In this document: piece after piece, positions 21,767-31,202 of the stretch
Layout: each line of letters begins with the position of its first letter
How positions within the stretch are numbered: position 1 is the first letter of the stretch
Source: Bacteroidales bacterium
GTDB lineage: Bacteria; Bacteroidota; Bacteroidia; Bacteroidales; UBA1402
DNA: 42,281 nt
Assembly (NCBI GenBank): GCA_017446025.1
Contig: JAFSRR010000097.1
Span: 1-42,281, forward strand
Reading direction: 5' to 3'
Made by a program: the position numbers and the translations under genes
The notes under the pieces: generated by a model
What the model was told of the DNA's origin: nothing
The model's database searches: none
Seen by the model: the letters and a program-made list of their open reading frames with translations, nothing else

Positions 21767-22756
21767 ATGGCAATTTTAGCATTTCAAAAACCAGAAAAGG
21801 TCATCATGCTGGAAGCTAACGACAAATTCGGCAAGTTCGAATTTCGTCCGTTGGAACCCGGTTTTGGTATAACGATCGGTAATGCCCTGCGCCGCATCCT
21901 GCTTTCCTCCTTGGAAGGCTACGCTATCAATTCGATGCGCGTCGAAGGCGTCACCCATGAATTTGCCACGATCAAGGGGGTGCGCGAAGATGTGACCAAT
22001 ATCATTTTGAATCTCAAGCAGATCCGTTTCAAACGTATCGCCGAGGATGTGGATGCCGAGAAGGTCATCGTCAAGGTGAGCGGCGAAGAACTCACCGCCA
22101 AGGAAATCGGCAAGGCTTTCAGTCACTTCGAGGTGCTGAATCCCGAGCTGAAGATCTGCAGCATGGAGAAGGGTACTTCGTTCAACCTGGAACTCACTGT
22201 CAACAAGGGCCGCGGCTATGTGCCCGCCGATGAGCAGGAGCTGCAGGACACCGACATCTACACCATCGCCATCGACTCTATCTATACCCCGATCCGCAAT
22301 GTGAAATACACTGTCGAGAACTATCGTGTAGAGCAGAAGACCGACTACGAGAAACTGGTCATCGAGATTACGACCGACGGTTCTGTCCATCCCAAGGAGG
22401 CTTTGAAAGAGGCTGCCCGTATCCTGATCTATCATTTCATGTTGTTCTCCGACGACAAGATCACGCTCGATACGACTGAGGTCGAGACCGGTGAAGAGTT
22501 TGACGAGGAAATCCTCCACATGCGTCAGCTGCTCAAGACCAAGCTGACCGACATGGATCTTTCCGTCCGTGCACTCAACTGTCTGAAGGCTGCCAACGTC
22601 GAGACCCTGGGTCAGTTGGCTACCTACAACAAGACCGATCTGCTCAAGTTCCGCAACTTCGGCAAAAAGTCCCTTACCGAACTGGATGATTTGCTCTCCA
22701 GAATGAATCTTTCCTTCGGAATGGATATTTCCAAGTACAAATTAGATAAAGAATAA
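21767..22756 (+). CDS. rpoA: RNA polymerase subunit alpha
   Basis: A 329-residue assembly platform of RNA polymerase. The N-terminal dimerisation domain (residues ~1-235) includes [20 protein letters not shown]. An acidic linker follows, then the C-terminal domain (about 255-329) with two helix-hairpin-helix units ([20 protein letters not shown] and [16 protein letters not shown]), which contacts UP elements and activators. Normal length for Bacteroidota. rplQ lies 5 bases downstream. Confidence 0.98.
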
Positions 22757-22761
22757 GAAAG

Positions 22762-23319
22762 ATGAGACATAATAAGAAATTCAATCACCTGGGCCGTCAG
22801 GCCGCTCACAGACATGCGATGCTGTCGAACATGGCTGCTTCGCTGATCATGCACAAGCGCATTTTCACGACCCTCGCCAAGGCCAAAGCCCTGAAGATCG
22901 TCGTTGAGCCCATGATCACGGCTGCCAAGAACGATACCACCGCTTCCCGTCGTCTGGTTTTCAAGACCCTGCAGAATAAAGAAGCCGTCACCGAACTGTT
23001 CCAGACTGTTGCCCAGAAAGTGGCCGACCGTCCCGGTGGCTACACCCGTATTCTGAAGACTGGAAACCGTCTGGGTGACAATGCTCAGATGTGTTTCATC
23101 GAGCTGGTCGACTTCAACGAGAACATGCTCAAGACCAAGGTCGAGAAGAAGACCCGCACGCGTCGTTCGTCGGCCAAGAAGAAAGCCGAAGCTGCCGAAG
23201 TCGTCGAGGCTCCTGCCGCTGAAGCTCCCGCCGTCGAGGAAGCTCCCGTTGCCGAGGCTCCTGCCGCTGAAGTTCCTGCCGAAGAGGCCCCTGCTGCCGA
23301 AGCTCCTACCGCTGAATAA
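22762..23319 (+). CDS. rplQ: 50S ribosomal protein L17 with Ala/Pro/Glu tail (bL17)
   Basis: A 185-residue protein. Residues 1 to about 125 form the normal L17 fold ([20 protein letters not shown], then [20 protein letters not shown]). A basic stretch [12 protein letters not shown] leads into about 45 residues of imperfect E-A-P-A-A-E repeats, so the protein is longer than E. coli L17 (127 residues). Tails of this kind occur in Bacteroidota L17; this one is long. It is the last gene of the block and is followed by a strong terminator. Confidence 0.96.
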
Positions 23320-23340
23320 TTTCAAATTCAGATATCACGA

Positions 23341-23372
23341 AGAGGGCAACCATCGGGTTACCCTCTTTTTTT
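23341..23372 (+). terminator. Terminator of the ribosomal superoperon
   Basis: AGAGGGCAACC (23341-23351) pairs with GGTTACCCTCT (23356-23366) with one C·A mismatch around an ATCG loop, followed by a run of seven T ending at 23372. It lies 21 bases after the rplQ stop. Confidence 0.88.
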
Positions 23373-23410
23373 GTACCCGTTGCCGGCAGCTTGGTCGGAG
23401 TGGAAAAAAT

Positions 23411-23498
23411 GTCTTACCTTTATGCCGCTTTTGGAAATGCCATCGTCATCACAACATAATACGGGAGCGCCCAACGGGCGGCTGGGAACGGAGCCGGT
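23411..23498 (+). repeat. Left copy of the 88-bp direct repeat (MATE 5' end)
   Basis: Matches 26231-26318 at 86 of 88 positions, with the first 77 bases identical. Looser similarity with small indels extends about 20 bases further upstream (GGCAG, GGTCGGA and GGAAAAA blocks). The right copy is the start of the MATE gene. The offset between copies is exactly 2,820 bases. The two mismatches change Thr (here, LGTEPV) to Ala (right copy, LGAEPV). Confidence 0.95.
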
Positions 23499-23532
23499 AT
23501 TGCACCGGGCTCTGTTTTTAGCTTCAGTCTGA
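23422..23532 (+). pseudogene. Truncated 5' remnant of the MATE gene
   Basis: The frame starting at the ATG at 23422 reads MPLLEMPSSSQHNTGAPNGR then LGTEPV, the same as the intact MATE protein starting at 26242 except for one Thr/Ala change. It then departs into ten unrelated residues and a TGA. The match stops exactly where the repeat ends (23498). LGTEPV is the form often seen at the start of MATE proteins, so this copy may keep the older sequence. No function as a protein is expected. Confidence 0.8.
23487..23519 (+). terminator. Terminator at the left repeat junction
   Basis: A 12-bp stem with one bulged G (23487-23498 with 23504-23516), loop ATTGC, and a T-run at 23515-23519 that partly pairs with AA. 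The 5' arm lies in the repeat and the 3' arm in the unique cassette sequence. It would stop transcription coming from the repeat or reading through from rplQ. Confidence 0.7.
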
Positions 23533-23579
23533 TTCTATTCAGTAACCACTACAGAATACAACTATATAAAGAATTTTTT

Positions 23580-23610
23580 TTTGATAATTGTGTTTAAAGT
23601 GCGACCTTTA
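23580..23610 (+). promoter_or_regulatory. Weak promoter ahead of the methyltransferase-like gene
   Basis: TTTG at 23580-23583, a 19-base spacer, then GACCTTTA at 23603-23610, which keeps four of the six fixed bases of TAnnTTTG. It would start transcripts near 23617, about 35 bases before the chosen ATG. Confidence 0.35.
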
Positions 23611-23652
23611 CGCCCAATAATCATTTATAATGGAAGATATTATAAGGAAAAG

Positions 23653-24567
23653 ATGAATCCTATTAGAAAAATAATCAAGGACTTTTATATAAGGTGGCAC
23701 GAGCGCGTGGTGCACCACCTCGAAAGCAAGACAGATAATTATCTTTGGAACATTTGGTCGTGGTGTCAGAATGAGACTATGCTGAGACAAGGGGTTATTA
23801 AAGATACTCCTGATTACAAGTATTATTCTCAACTGCATAGAATCCTTGATATTAAGAAACTGGCTGGGAATTATCATCTGGCACGAATAGGGAAAAAGGG
23901 TGATGGTGGATATTATATGGCGGAGAACGAAAAGGGGGCTTATTCAGATTCAGATTGTCTTATTGCATATTCCCTGGGGATAGCCGACGATGTGTCATGG
24001 GATCTTTTTATGGCAGAGAAAGGGTATAATGTATTCCAATACGATGGCTGCATCAAGCAAATACCTGTCAATCATCCTTCTTTTCATTGGGAAAGAATTA
24101 ATATTACAGGGGATGTAGAATCCAAAACACAAAAGCGTCTGACTACTCTTTTGAAGCAAAATGGTCATTCGGATCTTCGTGGCATGATTTTGAAATGTGA
24201 TATCGAAGGGTCTGAATGGGGCATGCTTAATGAAATGGAAGAATCACAATTGGATTGTTTTGACCAGGTTTTGTTGGAATTGCACAGTCTTGTATATAGT
24301 CAAAAGAGAGAGGCCATTCTTTCTGCATTGGAGAAACTCAGTCACACACACTCTCTGGTTTATCTTCATGCAAATAACAACGGGATAGTCAATTATACGG
24401 ATAAAATGGTCACTCCCGATTTGATAGAGGGGACATTTGTGAACAAGAAGTTTTTTGAAACGCAAGAACTTGATGCCGTTCTGCCCCTTCGGACGGATGA
24501 TAGAAATCTTTCAGGGAAGCAGGATATTTTAGTAGGGAGGTGGAATATACGGGAAGGCGAGTTTTAG
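23653..24567 (+). CDS. Methyltransf_22 / FkbM-like methyltransferase
   Basis: A 304-residue cytoplasmic protein with the pattern of the METTL24/Methyltransf_22 branch of SAM-dependent methyltransferases: KGDGGYYM, a motif-I-like stretch YSLGIADDVSWD, FQYDGCIKQIP, and the hallmark LKCDIEGSEWGML, then LLELHSL and YLHANNNG. Substrate is unknown; related proteins are often found near glycan genes. The frame is open further upstream through a TTG at 23581, but the ATG at 23653 follows AAGGAAAAG and gives a sensible N-terminus. Codon use is AT-rich. The CotH-like gene starts 58 bases later, so the two are probably co-transcribed. Confidence 0.72.
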   Translation: MNPIRKIIKDFYIRWHERVVHHLESKTDNYLWNIWSWCQNETMLRQGVIKDTPDYKYYSQLHRILDIKKLAGNYHLARIGKKGDGGYYMAENEKGAYSDSDCLIAYSLGIADDVSWDLFMAEKGYNVFQYDGCIKQIPVNHPSFHWERINITGDVESKTQKRLTTLLKQNGHSDLRGMILKCDIEGSEWGMLNEMEESQLDCFDQVLLELHSLVYSQKREAILSALEKLSHTHSLVYLHANNNGIVNYTDKMVTPDLIEGTFVNKKFFETQELDAVLPLRTDDRNLSGKQDILVGRWNIREGEF

Positions 24568-24625
24568 AACCCGGTTTCAGTGTCGAAAAGGGAGGCGAGT
24601 TTACGGTGAAAAAACGTGACTGAAT

Positions 24626-26188
24626 ATGCGAGACGGCATCAAATTGTATTTGGCAATCCTCTTTTGTGTGTTGTTGGCAGCAGGTTGCCATGATACACGT
24701 GAACAGCCGACTCCGGCAAATCCTTGTTACATTGAAGTGCAAGACTCGGTTGTTTTGTTTAAATATTCGAGTGACACATTGTATTTAAACAGCGACTTGC
24801 CTATTTCTGACGGCAGGCTTGTTTGTCATCGTTCTTTTCCTCCTAAAAGAAGTGGAGCCAATGATGCTCCTGATTCTTTTTTGATTACAGAAATAAAGAG
24901 CAAGGGAGAAAACCTGTGGCGAATAGTTCTCTCTGACACAGGTGATAGTTATGTCTATGAAAATTCTTTTTGTTTCAGTTGGTCGGGGCGCCTGAATGAT
25001 ACTGGGGATACTTGTTTGGTGGTCAGTGCTCCGTTCACGGTATGCAAGCCTTTTTTTACCGGGCTGCCTGCTTTGGTGCTAAACACCCCGGATGCTGTAC
25101 CGATAGTTTCCAAAACACAGTGGATAACAGGTGCAGAGATGGTTTTGTTTGATGAAAACGGCCATCAGCTTTATCAAGGAGGCTTGGAAATAAAAGGCCG
25201 TGGCAACAGTACTTGGAATGCACCTAAAAAACCATATTCTTTAAGACTGGATATTAAAGCCGGTTTGTTTGACATGCCACCAAATCGGCGATGGGTGTTG
25301 TTGGCCAATTATCTGGACCGGACGTTGCTGCGCAACCATCTGGCTTTCTTTTTGGAGGGAGCGGAAGGTAACACCTCTGCTTGGACGCCTCGTGGGCAGT
25401 TTGTCGAACTGATTCTGAATGGTGAACATCTGGGTAATTATTACTTATGTGAGAAAATCAGTGTGGGTGATAATAGAATCGATCTGAAGACTAATAGCCC
25501 ATCGGATGCTGACATCAGTTTCATGGTTGAAATGGATACCAATTTTGATGAAGTCAACAAGTTTCGTACTCCTGTCCGGCAACTCCCGGTGATGATTCAT
25601 GAACCGGATGAAAACGACTTGACAGCGGAACAGGCTTCATATATCGAAAATTACTTTTCTCGTCTCGAGCAGTTGATATATAACAGCAATTCTTTGAGTG
25701 AGGAGAGTTACGGGTGTTTGCTTGACTTGGACAGTTATGTAGATTATTGGCTGATCAATGAACTAACTGGTAATACGGAGAGCTGGTGGCCCAAAAGTGT
25801 TTTCATGTATCGTGACAAAGGGGGGAAGTTGATTGTCGGCCCAGTATGGGATTATGACTGGGGGACTTTCGGAAAGCGTTATGAGAACAAGTTTTGTTGC
25901 TTGGATTGCCTTTGGACACGACAACTTCTGCTAAATGGTGATTTCAGAAATCTGGCGGCTGAAAGATGGAACAAGTTGTTACCGGGATTGGCGACTGTGT
26001 TTGATGAAATCGACAGGCAAAGGGATCGCTTGTCATATTCGGCGGCGATCAATGAGTCTATGTGGCCCAATGACAGGGATATTAATGGCGATGAGACCTT
26101 GTCGTACGAGGAGGCTGTTGAGCTACTGAAGAGGAATCTACGGGAACGCATGGATTGGATCAGCGAGCACATACATTCCATTCAGTAA
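24626..26188 (+). CDS. CotH-kinase-like lipoprotein
   Basis: A 520-residue lipoprotein (lipobox LAAGC, Cys21). After a ~150-residue N-terminal region comes a CotH domain: KGRGNSTWNAPKKPYSLRLD (about 190-210), LLANYLDRTLLRNHLAF, VELILNGEHLGNYYLCEKI (about 262-280) and the metal-binding motif GPVWDYDWGTFG with Asp near 409 and 411. CotH of Bacillus is an atypical kinase that phosphorylates spore-coat proteins; substrates of the Bacteroidota lipoprotein forms are not established. Lipidation suggests it acts outside the cytoplasm. It ends 53 bases before the MATE ATG. Kinase activity is inferred from the domain only. Confidence 0.85.
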   Translation: MRDGIKLYLAILFCVLLAAGCHDTREQPTPANPCYIEVQDSVVLFKYSSDTLYLNSDLPISDGRLVCHRSFPPKRSGANDAPDSFLITEIKSKGENLWRIVLSDTGDSYVYENSFCFSWSGRLNDTGDTCLVVSAPFTVCKPFFTGLPALVLNTPDAVPIVSKTQWITGAEMVLFDENGHQLYQGGLEIKGRGNSTWNAPKKPYSLRLDIKAGLFDMPPNRRWVLLANYLDRTLLRNHLAFFLEGAEGNTSAWTPRGQFVELILNGEHLGNYYLCEKISVGDNRIDLKTNSPSDADISFMVEMDTNFDEVNKFRTPVRQLPVMIHEPDENDLTAEQASYIENYFSRLEQLIYNSNSLSEESYGCLLDLDSYVDYWLINELTGNTESWWPKSVFMYRDKGGKLIVGPVWDYDWGTFGKRYENKFCCLDCLWTRQLLLNGDFRNLAAERWNKLLPGLATVFDEIDRQRDRLSYSAAINESMWPNDRDINGDETLSYEEAVELLKRNLRERMDWISEHIHSIQ

Positions 26189-26230
26189 CTACAATTCTTC
26201 GAGAGTGGCAGGTCGGATGAAGCGGAAAAA

Positions 26231-26318
26231 GTCTTACCTTTATGCCGCTTTTGGAAATGCCATCGTCATCACAACATAATACGGGAGCGCCCAACGGGCG
26301 GCTGGGAGCAGAGCCGGT
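26231..26318 (+). repeat. Right copy of the 88-bp direct repeat (MATE 5' end)
   Basis: Pairs with 23411-23498. It covers the last bases before the MATE ATG and about 25 codons. A TACCTTTA box (26235-26242), seven of eight bases of TAnnTTTG, overlaps the first ATG in both copies. Confidence 0.95.
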
Positions 26319-27639
26319 GGGGCGTTTGTTGCTGGAATATGCATTGCCGGCCATCATTGCCATGGTGGCCTCATCGCTGTACAACATCGTTGACAGGGTG
26401 TTTATCGGCAACGGGGTGGGGCCCGAGGCGATTGCCGGCCTGGCGGTGGCCATGCCCTTGATGAACATCACGGCGGCTTTCGGGGCCATGGTCGGAGTGG
26501 GCTCGGCTTCCATTATCTCCATCCGGCTTGGCCAGAAACGACTGGACGATGCTACCCATGTGCTGGGCAACGCCCTGTTGCTCAATTTTATCATCGGCAC
26601 GCTGGTGGCCGTCGGCGGGCTCATCTGGCTGGATCCGCTGCTCCGTGCTTTCGGGGCCAGCGAGCGAGTGCTGCCTCATGCCCGGGGATTCATGCAGGTG
26701 ATCCTGCTGGCCAATCTGTTTAACCACAATTTCTTGGGGTTCAACAATATCATGCGTGCCACGGGCTATCCGCGCAAGGCCATGCTGTCGACCTTCCTTA
26801 CCGTGGGGGTCAACCTTGTGCTGGCACCGCTGTTTATCTTCGGCTTCCACTGGGGGCTGCGGGGCGCCGCGCTGGCCACGGCTTCGGCCCAGTTTTGCGG
26901 CTTCGTGTGGGTGATGTGGCATTTTTGCAGCCCCAGACACAACCTGCATTTCCGCCGGGGCTTCTTCCACTTGCGGCTCGGGGTGATTTCGGACATTGTT
27001 TCGATTGGTTCGTCCAATTTCTTGATGAATCTCTGCACTTGCCTGGTGGTGATTATTTTGAACAAGAGCCTGGCCTATTACGGCGGTGAGCAGGGCGACC
27101 TGGCCATCGGGGCCTACGGGGTGTGCAACGCCATCGTGATGCTCTTTATCATGACCGTGCTGGGGCTGAACCAGGGCATGCAGCCCATCGTGGGCTACAA
27201 TTTCGGGGCGCGGCAGAACGGCCGCATGCTGCGGGCCTATCGTCTGACCATTGTGGTGGCCACCTGTATCACCACCCTGGGTTTTGCCTTGGGCGAGCTG
27301 TTCCCCGCCCAGATTGCCTCGGCCTTTACCGGCGACGAGGTGATGCGCTCGCTGGCGGCCCGCATGCTGCGCATCATCTTGATCAGCTTCCCGGTGGTGG
27401 GCTTCCAGATGGTGACCACTTCGTTTTTCCAGGCCATCGGCAAGGCGGGTTGGTCTATCTTCCTGAGCCTCACCCGCCAATTGATTTTCCTCATCCCGGC
27501 CTTGTGGCTGTTGCCGCGCTTTTTCGGCCTGCAGGGGGTGATGGCGGCCCTGCCTACCGGCGATGTGCTGGCCTCGCTGCTGACGCTGGCCGTGATCCTG
27601 ACACAAATCAGAAAATACCGTTCGTATCCGCTCGAATGA
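26242..27639 (+). CDS. MATE family multidrug/cation efflux transporter
   Basis: A 465-residue inner-membrane antiporter of the MATE (NorM/DinF) superfamily, exporting cationic compounds with Na+ or H+. Family signs are LLLEYALPAIIAMVASSLYN, IGNGVGPEAIAGLAVAMPLM and, in the second half, VLGLNQGMQPIVGYNFGARQ; two repeats of six hydrophobic helices are readable. The ATG at 26242 may not be the true start: 26257, five codons on, is the alternative if the overlapping TACCTTTA is a promoter box. The 5' end is duplicated at 23411. The stop (27637-27639) directly abuts the stop of the converging gene. Confidence 0.92.
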   Translation: MPLLEMPSSSQHNTGAPNGRLGAEPVGRLLLEYALPAIIAMVASSLYNIVDRVFIGNGVGPEAIAGLAVAMPLMNITAAFGAMVGVGSASIISIRLGQKRLDDATHVLGNALLLNFIIGTLVAVGGLIWLDPLLRAFGASERVLPHARGFMQVILLANLFNHNFLGFNNIMRATGYPRKAMLSTFLTVGVNLVLAPLFIFGFHWGLRGAALATASAQFCGFVWVMWHFCSPRHNLHFRRGFFHLRLGVISDIVSIGSSNFLMNLCTCLVVIILNKSLAYYGGEQGDLAIGAYGVCNAIVMLFIMTVLGLNQGMQPIVGYNFGARQNGRMLRAYRLTIVVATCITTLGFALGELFPAQIASAFTGDEVMRSLAARMLRIILISFPVVGFQMVTTSFFQAIGKAGWSIFLSLTRQLIFLIPALWLLPRFFGLQGVMAALPTGDVLASLLTLAVILTQIRKYRSYPLE

Positions 27640-30219
27640 TCAGCGGTTGAGCGAGCCGGTCTGCCCCTGGGCGGTGAGCACCTCGGCGTGGACGCTGATG
27701 CCGCTCGGATCGGCATTGTTGTAGAAGCGGATGGCGGCCTGGCCCTGGGCGTCGGTCTTCAGGTCGGGATTCCAGTAGAGGGTGCGCCGGTGGTCGAAGG
27801 GATCGGTGTCGAAAGCCCGGTCGTAGCGCGGATGGTAGAAATCCTTCACTTCATTGTACCCTTGCAGGGTGGTGCGGCGTATGCCGACCTGTGAGAGCTC
27901 GCTGTGCCCGTCGGGATAGGGATAGACCAGCACATAGGCGATCCGCTTGCCCATGTCGGCCGTCTCGTCGAGGGTCTCCAGATTGAAGCCGTTCTCGATG
28001 GCGATGTTCTTGACGCCGGGTTCCAGGATCTCTATCTTTTCTACCTGATCGACAAAGGGCAGCTCATCGCTGAGCTCTTCGTAGAGCCTGAGGGTGCGGG
28101 TGTTGAGTATCTTGACCGGAGCATCCAGGTAGTAGAGCACCTGGGAGGCCCTGCTGCTGCCTAGCTCGCCGTTGCCTTCGTTGAAGACATCCTTGATCCA
28201 GAACTTGTCGTTGACGGCTGTGAGGAAGGAAAACAGGTCGTCGGTGGTGTATTGGGCCTGGTCTTCCATCTTGTCGGTCTCCTTCTTGACTTCGTAGGTG
28301 ATGCTCACTTTCTGGCCGTAGTCTTCGTTGCGCTCCTTGCGCTTGGCGGTGATGGAGGCCTCCTGCAGCAGCACGTCGCCGGGCATGATATGGATCTCGC
28401 CCTGGCGGGCATAGTTCTCTTCGTAAGTGCGGCTCTTGACCTGGGAAAGGTTAGCCCGCAGGATGGGCGCTTCCTGCTCGGCGGGCGCAAAGGCCCGGGC
28501 AGTGGGCTGGAAATGGCGGTTGAGCGAGATGAAGACATTGCGCAGGCGCTGCCGCTCGTCGGTGACCTGCAGGGTGAGTCTCCATTGCCCGTCAAAATCG
28601 TAGAGGAAATTGTAGTTGCCGTCGATATCGGTGGTGCAGGCTCCCGTGAAGGCAGCCGAATCGGACAGCATGAGCAGGGTTACCTTGACGTCGGGCACGG
28701 GGGTGCGGCGCACAATCGATAGGATCTTGCCGTCGAGCAGGATGCCTTCCTCGATGGGGTGCTTCATTTCGAAGGCTTGCTGGCCCGACATCACTTCCCA
28801 GCGGTAGCGGCGCCAGCCCTGCACCATCATCAGCAGGTCGAGTTGCTGGCGGTGGCGGGCATCGTCTTTTTCGAAGTAGGCGGCCGGGTTCTTGATGTAG
28901 CCTTTCAGGTCGGAGGCCAGCAGCAACTGGCTGTAGATGTCGGTCTGCGGGGCGTTGGCCAGCACTTCGCTGCCGTCCCTGACGGAGAGCGAGAAAGCCT
29001 GGTCGGGCAGGGGCTGCTGTCGGCGGTCTTTCAGGCGGAACTTCATCGTGACCGGCTCGAAGGCCTTGTAGGTTTCCTTGTTCTGCTCGCAGTCGATTTC
29101 TATGGCGGCCGGGTCGTGGGCCGTGTTGCGCACAAAGATCATGCGCGAGGCCAGGATGCGCCCTTCGCTGTTATAGAGGAAAACTTCATTGACGCCGGAG
29201 GGCAGACCGGCCTTGGAAAAGGTGCCGGCCAGGGTGTTGGCCGTGACGGCCAGCGGCTGGTACAGGTACAGGCGGCCCCGGCAGGCGATGGCCAGGGCGA
29301 TGGTATCGTGCACCTGGGCATAATTGTTGAGCACGGTGATGCCCAGCTGGTCGGGCGAGAGGTTGTTGACTCTCAGCGTATAGCCTTCGCTCTCGATCTC
29401 GGGCAGATCCACCTGTTGCTTCTTGCCGTTGCGCGTCAACTGACAGGTGTATTTTTCTCCCGGCAGGGGAGTGAATTCAAAAAAGCCCATGCCTTGCCAG
29501 GCGGTGGCGAAGAAGGCCACGGTCTGGCCCTGGCTGTCGAGCACCTGGCCGCTCACATCGGCTTCGAAGCCCGCGTCGTTCCAGGCTTTGAAGGCGACCT
29601 GGTTGGGCAGGCCGGCGATGAGGTGGCCGCCTTCGGGGAAGAAGGCGATGAGCTGTTGTGCTTCGTTCTTGTCTGCGCTGACCGCGGCTTTTTCGCGCTT
29701 GTCGGGCAGGGGATCGGGGGCAATCTTCATCGTGGGGGTCTGCCGCCGGCCGGAACGCCGTTCATAGACGGCCTGGTCAAACACGGGGAACACCCGGGAG
29801 AAGACGACTTCCTGGCCGAAGTTGAGCATGCAGCGCGTGTAGGCCCTCACTTCGTAGAAGCCGGCGCTCAGCTCGGGCTTGAGGTAGAACACCCCGTGGG
29901 CCTGTCCGTCCTTGATGCGCAGCTTGAGGCTCTCGACAATGTTGCCGCTGCTGGAGAGCAGCTCCACGTAGAGCGTCTTGCTCATGGGGGTGAAATGATG
30001 GTTTTCGGCCAGCACGACATAGGCCTTGAACCAGATGTTCTCTCCAGTGAAATAGGTGTCGTTGTCGAAGTGCAGATAGACTTTTTCCTGGGCGTAGGAC
30101 TGGGAAAACAGCGTATAGTTTTTGGCCAGGGCCGCCAACCGGGCGGTCTGGGCCGACAAGGTCGCGGCTGAGGATAATAGGGTTGCGACAAGGAGGGCCG
30201 ATGCCAGTCGATGCTTCAT
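27640..30219 (-). CDS. Large secreted MG2/plug-like protein, function unknown
   Basis: An 859-residue exported protein with a Sec signal peptide (cleavage probably after LSA, residue ~23). It opens with EKVYLHFDNDTYFTGENIWF (about 44-63), the MG2-like beta-sandwich of a large Bacteroidota family. Middle sections are further beta-rich domains, including a carboxypeptidase-regulatory-like piece (PDVKVTLLMLSDSAAFTG). Near residue 690-730, VLYYLDAPVKI and VEKIEILEPG resemble a TonB-receptor plug, but no outer-membrane barrel follows. It ends with a beta domain containing TLYWNPDLKTDAQGQAAIRF. Such proteins are usually called hypothetical or TonB-plug proteins; role unknown. It lies 27 bases downstream of the coiled-coil gene, so they form an operon. 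Confidence 0.7.
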   Translation of the reverse strand: MKHRLASALLVATLLSSAATLSAQTARLAALAKNYTLFSQSYAQEKVYLHFDNDTYFTGENIWFKAYVVLAENHHFTPMSKTLYVELLSSSGNIVESLKLRIKDGQAHGVFYLKPELSAGFYEVRAYTRCMLNFGQEVVFSRVFPVFDQAVYERRSGRRQTPTMKIAPDPLPDKREKAAVSADKNEAQQLIAFFPEGGHLIAGLPNQVAFKAWNDAGFEADVSGQVLDSQGQTVAFFATAWQGMGFFEFTPLPGEKYTCQLTRNGKKQQVDLPEIESEGYTLRVNNLSPDQLGITVLNNYAQVHDTIALAIACRGRLYLYQPLAVTANTLAGTFSKAGLPSGVNEVFLYNSEGRILASRMIFVRNTAHDPAAIEIDCEQNKETYKAFEPVTMKFRLKDRRQQPLPDQAFSLSVRDGSEVLANAPQTDIYSQLLLASDLKGYIKNPAAYFEKDDARHRQQLDLLMMVQGWRRYRWEVMSGQQAFEMKHPIEEGILLDGKILSIVRRTPVPDVKVTLLMLSDSAAFTGACTTDIDGNYNFLYDFDGQWRLTLQVTDERQRLRNVFISLNRHFQPTARAFAPAEQEAPILRANLSQVKSRTYEENYARQGEIHIMPGDVLLQEASITAKRKERNEDYGQKVSITYEVKKETDKMEDQAQYTTDDLFSFLTAVNDKFWIKDVFNEGNGELGSSRASQVLYYLDAPVKILNTRTLRLYEELSDELPFVDQVEKIEILEPGVKNIAIENGFNLETLDETADMGKRIAYVLVYPYPDGHSELSQVGIRRTTLQGYNEVKDFYHPRYDRAFDTDPFDHRRTLYWNPDLKTDAQGQAAIRFYNNADPSGISVHAEVLTAQGQTGSLNR

Positions 30220-30246: not shown

Positions 30247-31131
30247 TTATTTGCCCAGGACGAATTCGCGGCTGCCGATCAGAAAGCCGTCGGCAAAGTA
30301 GTCGGCACGGTAGGTGCCGGCATCGAGGTATTCCTGCACGTCCCAGTAGATGGTGACATGGGCTTCCTCGCCGTCATATTCGATGACCCTCGAGGCCGAG
30401 CAGGGCAGGGCGCTGCCTTCGAATTCGAAGGTCTGGGCATTGTCCTTGAGCAGGGGCAGGCCGTCGGGCCGGGTGATGCGCAGGTAGATGGCCTTCTGGC
30501 CCACCGGGGCGGAGATGTTCTTGGAAATGACAGCCTGGAACTCCAGCTGGCTCGTGCGGTTGAGCTTGGTGGTGGCACGGCCCTTGTTGGTGAGCTGGCG
30601 CACGGTGATGTCGCGCGCTTCGAGCATGGAGGCCAGCAGCACCTTTTCGGTGAGGACGGCTTTTTCCCTGGCCAGGGCCGTGGCTTCTTCACGGGCGGCC
30701 CGGTACTGGCGGGTCATGGCGCGGTTCTCTTCCTTGAGGCGGGTGTTGACCGTGTTCAGCGAGTCGATCTGTATGACATAGGAGCGCATCACGGAGCGGG
30801 CGGTCTCCAGTTCGCGGCGCAGCTCGGTGAGCCGGCGGGCGTTGTTGATCTTGAGTGTCTTGATTTCTTCGGCCAGGCGCAGGTTCTTGGTGCGCTCCTG
30901 GTCCAGCAGGGTGGCCAGGGAGTCGTTGCTGATGCGGATGCCGTAGTCTTCGTATTGCAGGGCCAGCTTGGAATAGTCTTCTTCCAATTCTTCCTTCTCG
31001 ATCTCGAACTGGTCGGTCATGGCCTGGATCACTTCGCTTTGGCGGTAATTGTCGATGTAGAGCCACACACCGAGCACCAAGAGCAGGAGCACGGCGGCCA
31101 TCAATACGTAGAGGGTGGTATTTTTCTTCAT
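30247..31131 (-). CDS. Membrane-anchored coiled-coil protein, function unknown
   Basis: A 294-residue protein. One N-terminal transmembrane helix (about residues 6-27, YVLMAAVLLLLVLGVWLYI) is followed by a long charged coiled coil (about 35-165, rich in Glu/Arg/Leu heptads) and a C-terminal beta-rich domain (about 190-294) ending GSREFVLGK. It is likely anchored in the inner membrane with the bulk in the periplasm. The frame is open for 22 more residues upstream to 31197, but those codons overlap the divergent promoter region, and MKKNTTLYVLM is a natural start. No known family is recognised. Confidence 0.7.
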   Translation of the reverse strand: MKKNTTLYVLMAAVLLLLVLGVWLYIDNYRQSEVIQAMTDQFEIEKEELEEDYSKLALQYEDYGIRISNDSLATLLDQERTKNLRLAEEIKTLKINNARRLTELRRELETARSVMRSYVIQIDSLNTVNTRLKEENRAMTRQYRAAREEATALAREKAVLTEKVLLASMLEARDITVRQLTNKGRATTKLNRTSQLEFQAVISKNISAPVGQKAIYLRITRPDGLPLLKDNAQTFEFEGSALPCSASRVIEYDGEEAHVTIYWDVQEYLDAGTYRADYFADGFLIGSREFVLGK

Positions 31132-31194
31132 AATAGACTGAATGATAGGACAGTCATCAGCACTGGACTTGTCTGCCCCGATGTTTCCATTCGG

Positions 31195-31202
31195 CAAAAG
31201 TA
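31195..31202 (-). promoter_or_regulatory. Minus-strand promoter box for the two-gene unit
   Basis: Reads TACTTTTG on the minus strand, an exact -7 match. No TTTG stands at the expected distance. The predicted start near 31188 leaves a leader of ~57 bases to the ATG at 31131. Confidence 0.5.

Follow-up and report, generated by a model that had tools for sequence, protein, structure and literature searches.

The interval between rplQ and a conserved gene for a coiled-coil-like protein in this window, the whole 42,281-nucleotide stretch of Bacteroidales DNA that was analysed, is probably a gene-turnover spot that has no integrase and has been remodelled by homologous and short-homology recombination. 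The direct repeat of a MATE gene 5' end, which brackets a two-gene islet in this interval, would be a scar of that remodelling. On this reading, the islet displays ordinary gene turnover driven by recombination, and no new element that integrates itself.

The left edge of the interval is formed by rplQ (L17) at the end of the ribosomal operon (22762–23319, plus strand; PF01196, E 4.5e-36). The right edge is the coiled-coil-like gene (30247–31197, minus strand), which adjoins rplQ with variable content in between in six genomes of the family (G006–G009, G011 and G012). Across the family, this interval ranges from 208 bp to several kb and holds different genes. In G007, the homolog of the coiled-coil-like gene lies 208 bp after rplQ, and this short site is also without MATE. 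G011 and G012 each have one intervening gene, which encodes a GT90 protein in G011 and a protein that begins alike in G012. An ECF-sigma/OMP cluster occupies the interval in G009, and glycosidase-type and MG2-like genes occupy it in G006 and G008. G001 carries rplQ on one contig and the MATE-hydrolase and MG2-coiled-coil genes on another. Because gene content differs among the family genomes, the interval is, judging from these comparisons, a variable spot, with MATE as one of its occupants. Six genomes of the genus yielded no rplQ-MATE locus that lacks the islet. The MG2-like gene of the window (27640–30219, minus strand; weak MG2/Big_1 matches and synteny) is present in two genera of the family, g1 and g2. 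At the 27640 boundary, MATE directly abuts the MG2-like gene, and the window lacks the alpha/beta hydrolase gene found after MATE in G004, G001 and G003. The tail of rplQ (23158–23316) encodes an Ala/Glu/Pro-rich C-terminus built of imperfect 15–18-bp units, and the length of the protein differs between the window species and its sister species G004 (185 vs 175 aa).

Positions 23411–23498 and 26231–26318 are identical at 86 of 88 nucleotides, with a longest identical run of 77 and a spacing of 2,820; a recount confirmed these figures of the first-pass annotation and placed the only differences at 23488 and 23490. Simple arithmetic shows that a 77-nt exact match in 42 kb is not due to chance. 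The repeat comprises the MATE promoter region and the first ~20 codons of MATE, and weaker homology extends it by ~20–30 bp upstream, ending just past the rplQ terminator. The left copy covers 23385–23498 on the plus strand (core 23406–23498) and is 97% identical to the right one across 93 nt. Its translation, MPLLEMPSSSQHNTGAPNGRLGTEPV, ends at a stop after 36 codons, in agreement with its earlier description as a dead fragment. The right copy (26226–26318, plus strand) does begin the MATE efflux gene, which is intact (26242–27639, plus strand; PF01554, E 3.6e-51) and shares 92% amino acid identity with its counterpart in G004 and 70% with that in G001. We take the right copy to be the native gene start because the G001 ortholog reads TACCTTTG at the corresponding position and its N-terminus is comparable, with LGTQPV at its end. 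The motif TTACCTTTATG in the repeat resembles the consensus of the Bacteroidetes -7 box; a sigma-70 promoter scan gave a signal not clearly above that of shuffled sequences. A further repeat at 23532 and 26175 (D10; 16 of 18 positions matching) was attributed to chance.

Profile matches confirm the two genes that had been annotated between the copies. The Methyltransf_22-like gene (23653–24567, plus strand; PF13383, E 4.3e-5, above its cut-off) is 98% identical to G004 at the DNA level, and the CotH-like lipoprotein gene (24626–26188, plus strand; PF08757, E 7e-33) is a mosaic relative to G004. With GC contents of 40% and 45%, respectively, vs 60% for MATE, the cargo is of clearly lower GC, as noted before, and the unit looks foreign. 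Relatives of the methyltransferase at E 1e-20 among 393 genomes of the order were confined to its own genome, in a sample that did not list G004. The phages yielded no methyltransferase match and the viral contigs no relative, and a single distant match (26%) came from plasmids. PADLOC assigned no defence match to the islet proteins, and Rfam gave no hit at gathering score across 22700–28000.

The sister species G004 (Bacteroidales bacterium RGIG4402, JAFUDT01, from roe deer omasum) carries a larger islet in the order rplQ, left copy, S74/T9SS gene, Methyltransf_22 gene, C25 peptidase gene, CotH gene and MATE. Its left copy and the sequence after the repeat form the identical novel junction seen in the window. 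Moreover, the window keeps fragments of both genes that it has lost relative to the G004 islet. Of the S74/T9SS gene, in whose G004 version a domain search identified an S74 chaperone domain and a T9SS sorting domain, the region upstream and a few initial codons remain at 23561–23646 (plus strand; aligned to L034 2200–2303). This remnant meets the region upstream of the Methyltransf_22 gene at a shared TATTAT. The C25 (gingipain-like) peptidase gene is intact in G004 (PF01364, E 4.7e-37), and the window keeps its last ~26 codons as a 3' remnant at ~24545–24624 (plus strand; 91% identity over 65 nt, 73% amino acid identity over the last 30 residues, E 2e-6). This remnant, which was absent from the first-pass annotation, is fused to the Methyltransf_22-like gene and supplies its last codons out of frame. 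Because fragments of both absent genes remain and both deletions sit at short direct matches, the two-gene form of the window is, on this comparison, a reduced islet left by deletion. The rplQ-MATE arrangement is carried by only two genomes, one for each species compared, and the order of events therefore rests on parsimony. In G002, which is 90–93% identical in DNA downstream and may be closer, the contig ends before the islet.

At the left joint, a degenerate 3'-end remnant of an IS3-family orfB (23485–23560, ~75 bp, minus strand) overlaps the last ~14 nt of the left MATE repeat. It matches an IS3 orfB of the same genome (83% over 41 nt) and contig ends of G003 (88% over 57 nt). Over ~13–14 nt, the MATE codons (GGGAACAGAGCCGGT in G004) resemble the IS3 end (GGAACAGAGCTCGGT), and this similar stretch is likely the joining point. 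The earlier statement that no recombinase lies inside the islet stands insofar as no intact one is present; it missed this degenerate transposase fragment. The remnant is short, just ~75 bp of a frameshifted orfB end with no intact transposase gene, which weakens the explanation that we favour. The plus strand of the joint contains a strong hairpin including a T run (23480–23523; fold of -27 kcal/mol, z -5.1), and the IS3 end already contains a similar palindrome. Transcripts started at the duplicated MATE promoter could be slowed or terminated by this hairpin before they reach the islet. The same genome also has, close to the end of a contig, an intact-looking two-ORF IS3-family element related to the remnant (L003 206–1557; C52).

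Comparison of the window with G004 along the 42 kb, in 250-bp bins, yields an average identity of 88%. Synonymous divergence (dS) is 0.45 for rpoA, 0.49 for rplQ, 0.51 for secY and 0.65 for MATE, vs 0.022 for the methyltransferase. In terms of sites, 4 of 181 synonymous sites differ in the methyltransferase vs 151 of 348 in MATE (Fisher 2e-28). CotH alternates near-identical blocks with strongly diverged ones, up to near saturation, with 2 synonymous differences at 96 sites in codons 301–462 and 31.5 at 35 sites in codons 463–520. Within the left repeat, identity between the species switches from background to near identity at 23462/23463, with 10 mismatches in 57 positions up to 23462 and 4 in 173 after it (p 2e-4). 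The low methyltransferase dS relative to its neighbours, the CotH mosaic and the switch in the repeat together bear the signature of a recent exchange of the interior between the species by homologous recombination. The high-identity tract breaks up inside CotH and does not match the repeat-to-repeat unit; in the G000/G004 comparison, the right crossover therefore did not use the right repeat. Exchange is seen inside the spot, with the flanking core genes at background divergence, in a comparison of two genomes; rates need many strains. A second CotH lipoprotein gene of G004 (L153 2269–3867) lies at another locus, downstream of what by eye is a BspA-type leucine-rich-repeat-like gene, and has 49% amino acid identity. 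Gene conversion from this paralogue (C1) was rejected as an explanation for the identical CotH patches: it is about equally distant from both islet genes, and the islet CotH carries no sign of exchange with it.

We propose that, in the common stock of the window species and G004, a piece of foreign DNA, one end of which lay in an IS3-family transposase gene, would have entered the spot and been joined by short similarity to the first ~20 codons of MATE. A second, complete MATE gene would have been left on the far side, producing the duplicated 5' end. The islet would then have been remodelled, with two genes lost from the window lineage, each at short direct matches, and its interior swapped between the species by homologous recombination, with one switch point in the left repeat and a mosaic CotH as the outcome. 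The duplication is most plausibly a scar: the DNA would have integrated by way of homology in MATE and been joined through short similarity at the IS3 end, an origin that would amount to homology-facilitated illegitimate recombination. A different beginning, within the same picture of a turnover spot, is less likely but must be taken seriously as the source of the repeat: a tandem duplication of MATE, an IS3-family insertion into the first copy, a deletion from codon ~20 to the transposase end at the short similar stretch, and separate entry of the foreign genes by homologous recombination. The left copy does still have an upstream region of its own next to the rplQ terminator, the IS3 remnant is directly attached to it, and deletions at short direct matches occur twice elsewhere in the islet. 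However, nothing left over from the remainder of a first MATE gene was found, and this route requires more steps.

The first-pass annotation had instead proposed a small non-autonomous cassette that inserts site-specifically at the MATE 5' end, duplicates it and can excise again. The precise-looking 88-nt direct repeat, with its 77 identical bases, and the low-GC cargo without a recombinase speak for this reading. We consider it very unlikely, however, since G004 has the same junction and IS3 scrap around a different gene set, with repeat copies just 84% alike, the two-gene content is a deletion remnant, and the recombination tracts do not follow the unit. As for recombinases, the unit contains only the degenerate IS3 fragment; its cargo genes are those for Methyltransf_22 and CotH. 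The search that had been suggested for cassettes bounded by MATE 5' ends with other cargo found none in the six genus genomes, which also contain no further MATE 5' fragments, and the repeat core has no exact match in the viral contigs. As had been pointed out, the two copies could, in principle, recombine with each other and give back rplQ-MATE; RecA-type excision of the islet may be possible. That the two copies are an assembly artefact would be conceivable for a fragmented draft genome (81% complete, 104 contigs), but the left copy and junction recur on a 410-kb contig in the independent assembly of G004, where sequence and islet length differ, and this makes such an error extremely improbable.

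The turnover spot that we favour resembles integrase-less hotspots, in which recombination at flanking core genes has been described (Oliveira et al. 2017, PMC5635113): low-GC genes lie between conserved genes without a recombinase, there are signs of homologous exchange, and content between the same core genes varies in relatives. Unlike those hotspots, this spot carries a duplicated 5' end of a flanking gene, and the comparison here covers one genome per species. Displacement that leaves orphan remnants, perhaps via homology-facilitated illegitimate recombination, has been reported for effector modules in Vibrio (PMC5361080). The islet resembles these T6SS scars (PMC5361080, PMC3240628) in that homology, here in MATE, can account for its right side and a ~14-nt similar stretch for its left joint, and that a piece of a former occupant was left behind. 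However, its remnant comes from the 5' end of a transporter gene and not from an immunity gene, and the displacement event itself is inferred. Elements that bring along part of their target gene, and rebuild it when they integrate, likewise have a gene end directly repeated around foreign genes, whereas the islet has no integrase, the G004 copies have diverged, and content and tracts ignore the repeat-bounded unit.

As a scar, the repeat could in addition act as an arm for recombination. The repeat copies are 97% alike in the window vs 84% in G004 (Fisher p 0.014), which suggests either that they were homogenised later in the window lineage or that the islet entered an empty site by way of the repeat. 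In a bolder and rather doubtful version of the latter, the duplicated MATE 5' end would be a reusable handle for homologous recombination, letting donor islets move in and out of the rplQ-MATE site without an integrase; entry into an empty site would regenerate two near-identical copies. If true, this would explain the difference in copy identity between the two species. More generally, scars and homologous exchange at a turnover spot can together mimic a new integrating cassette. The islet offers a compact example from ruminant-gut Bacteroidales, in which a methyltransferase gene was transferred recently between species and CotH was exchanged as a patchwork.
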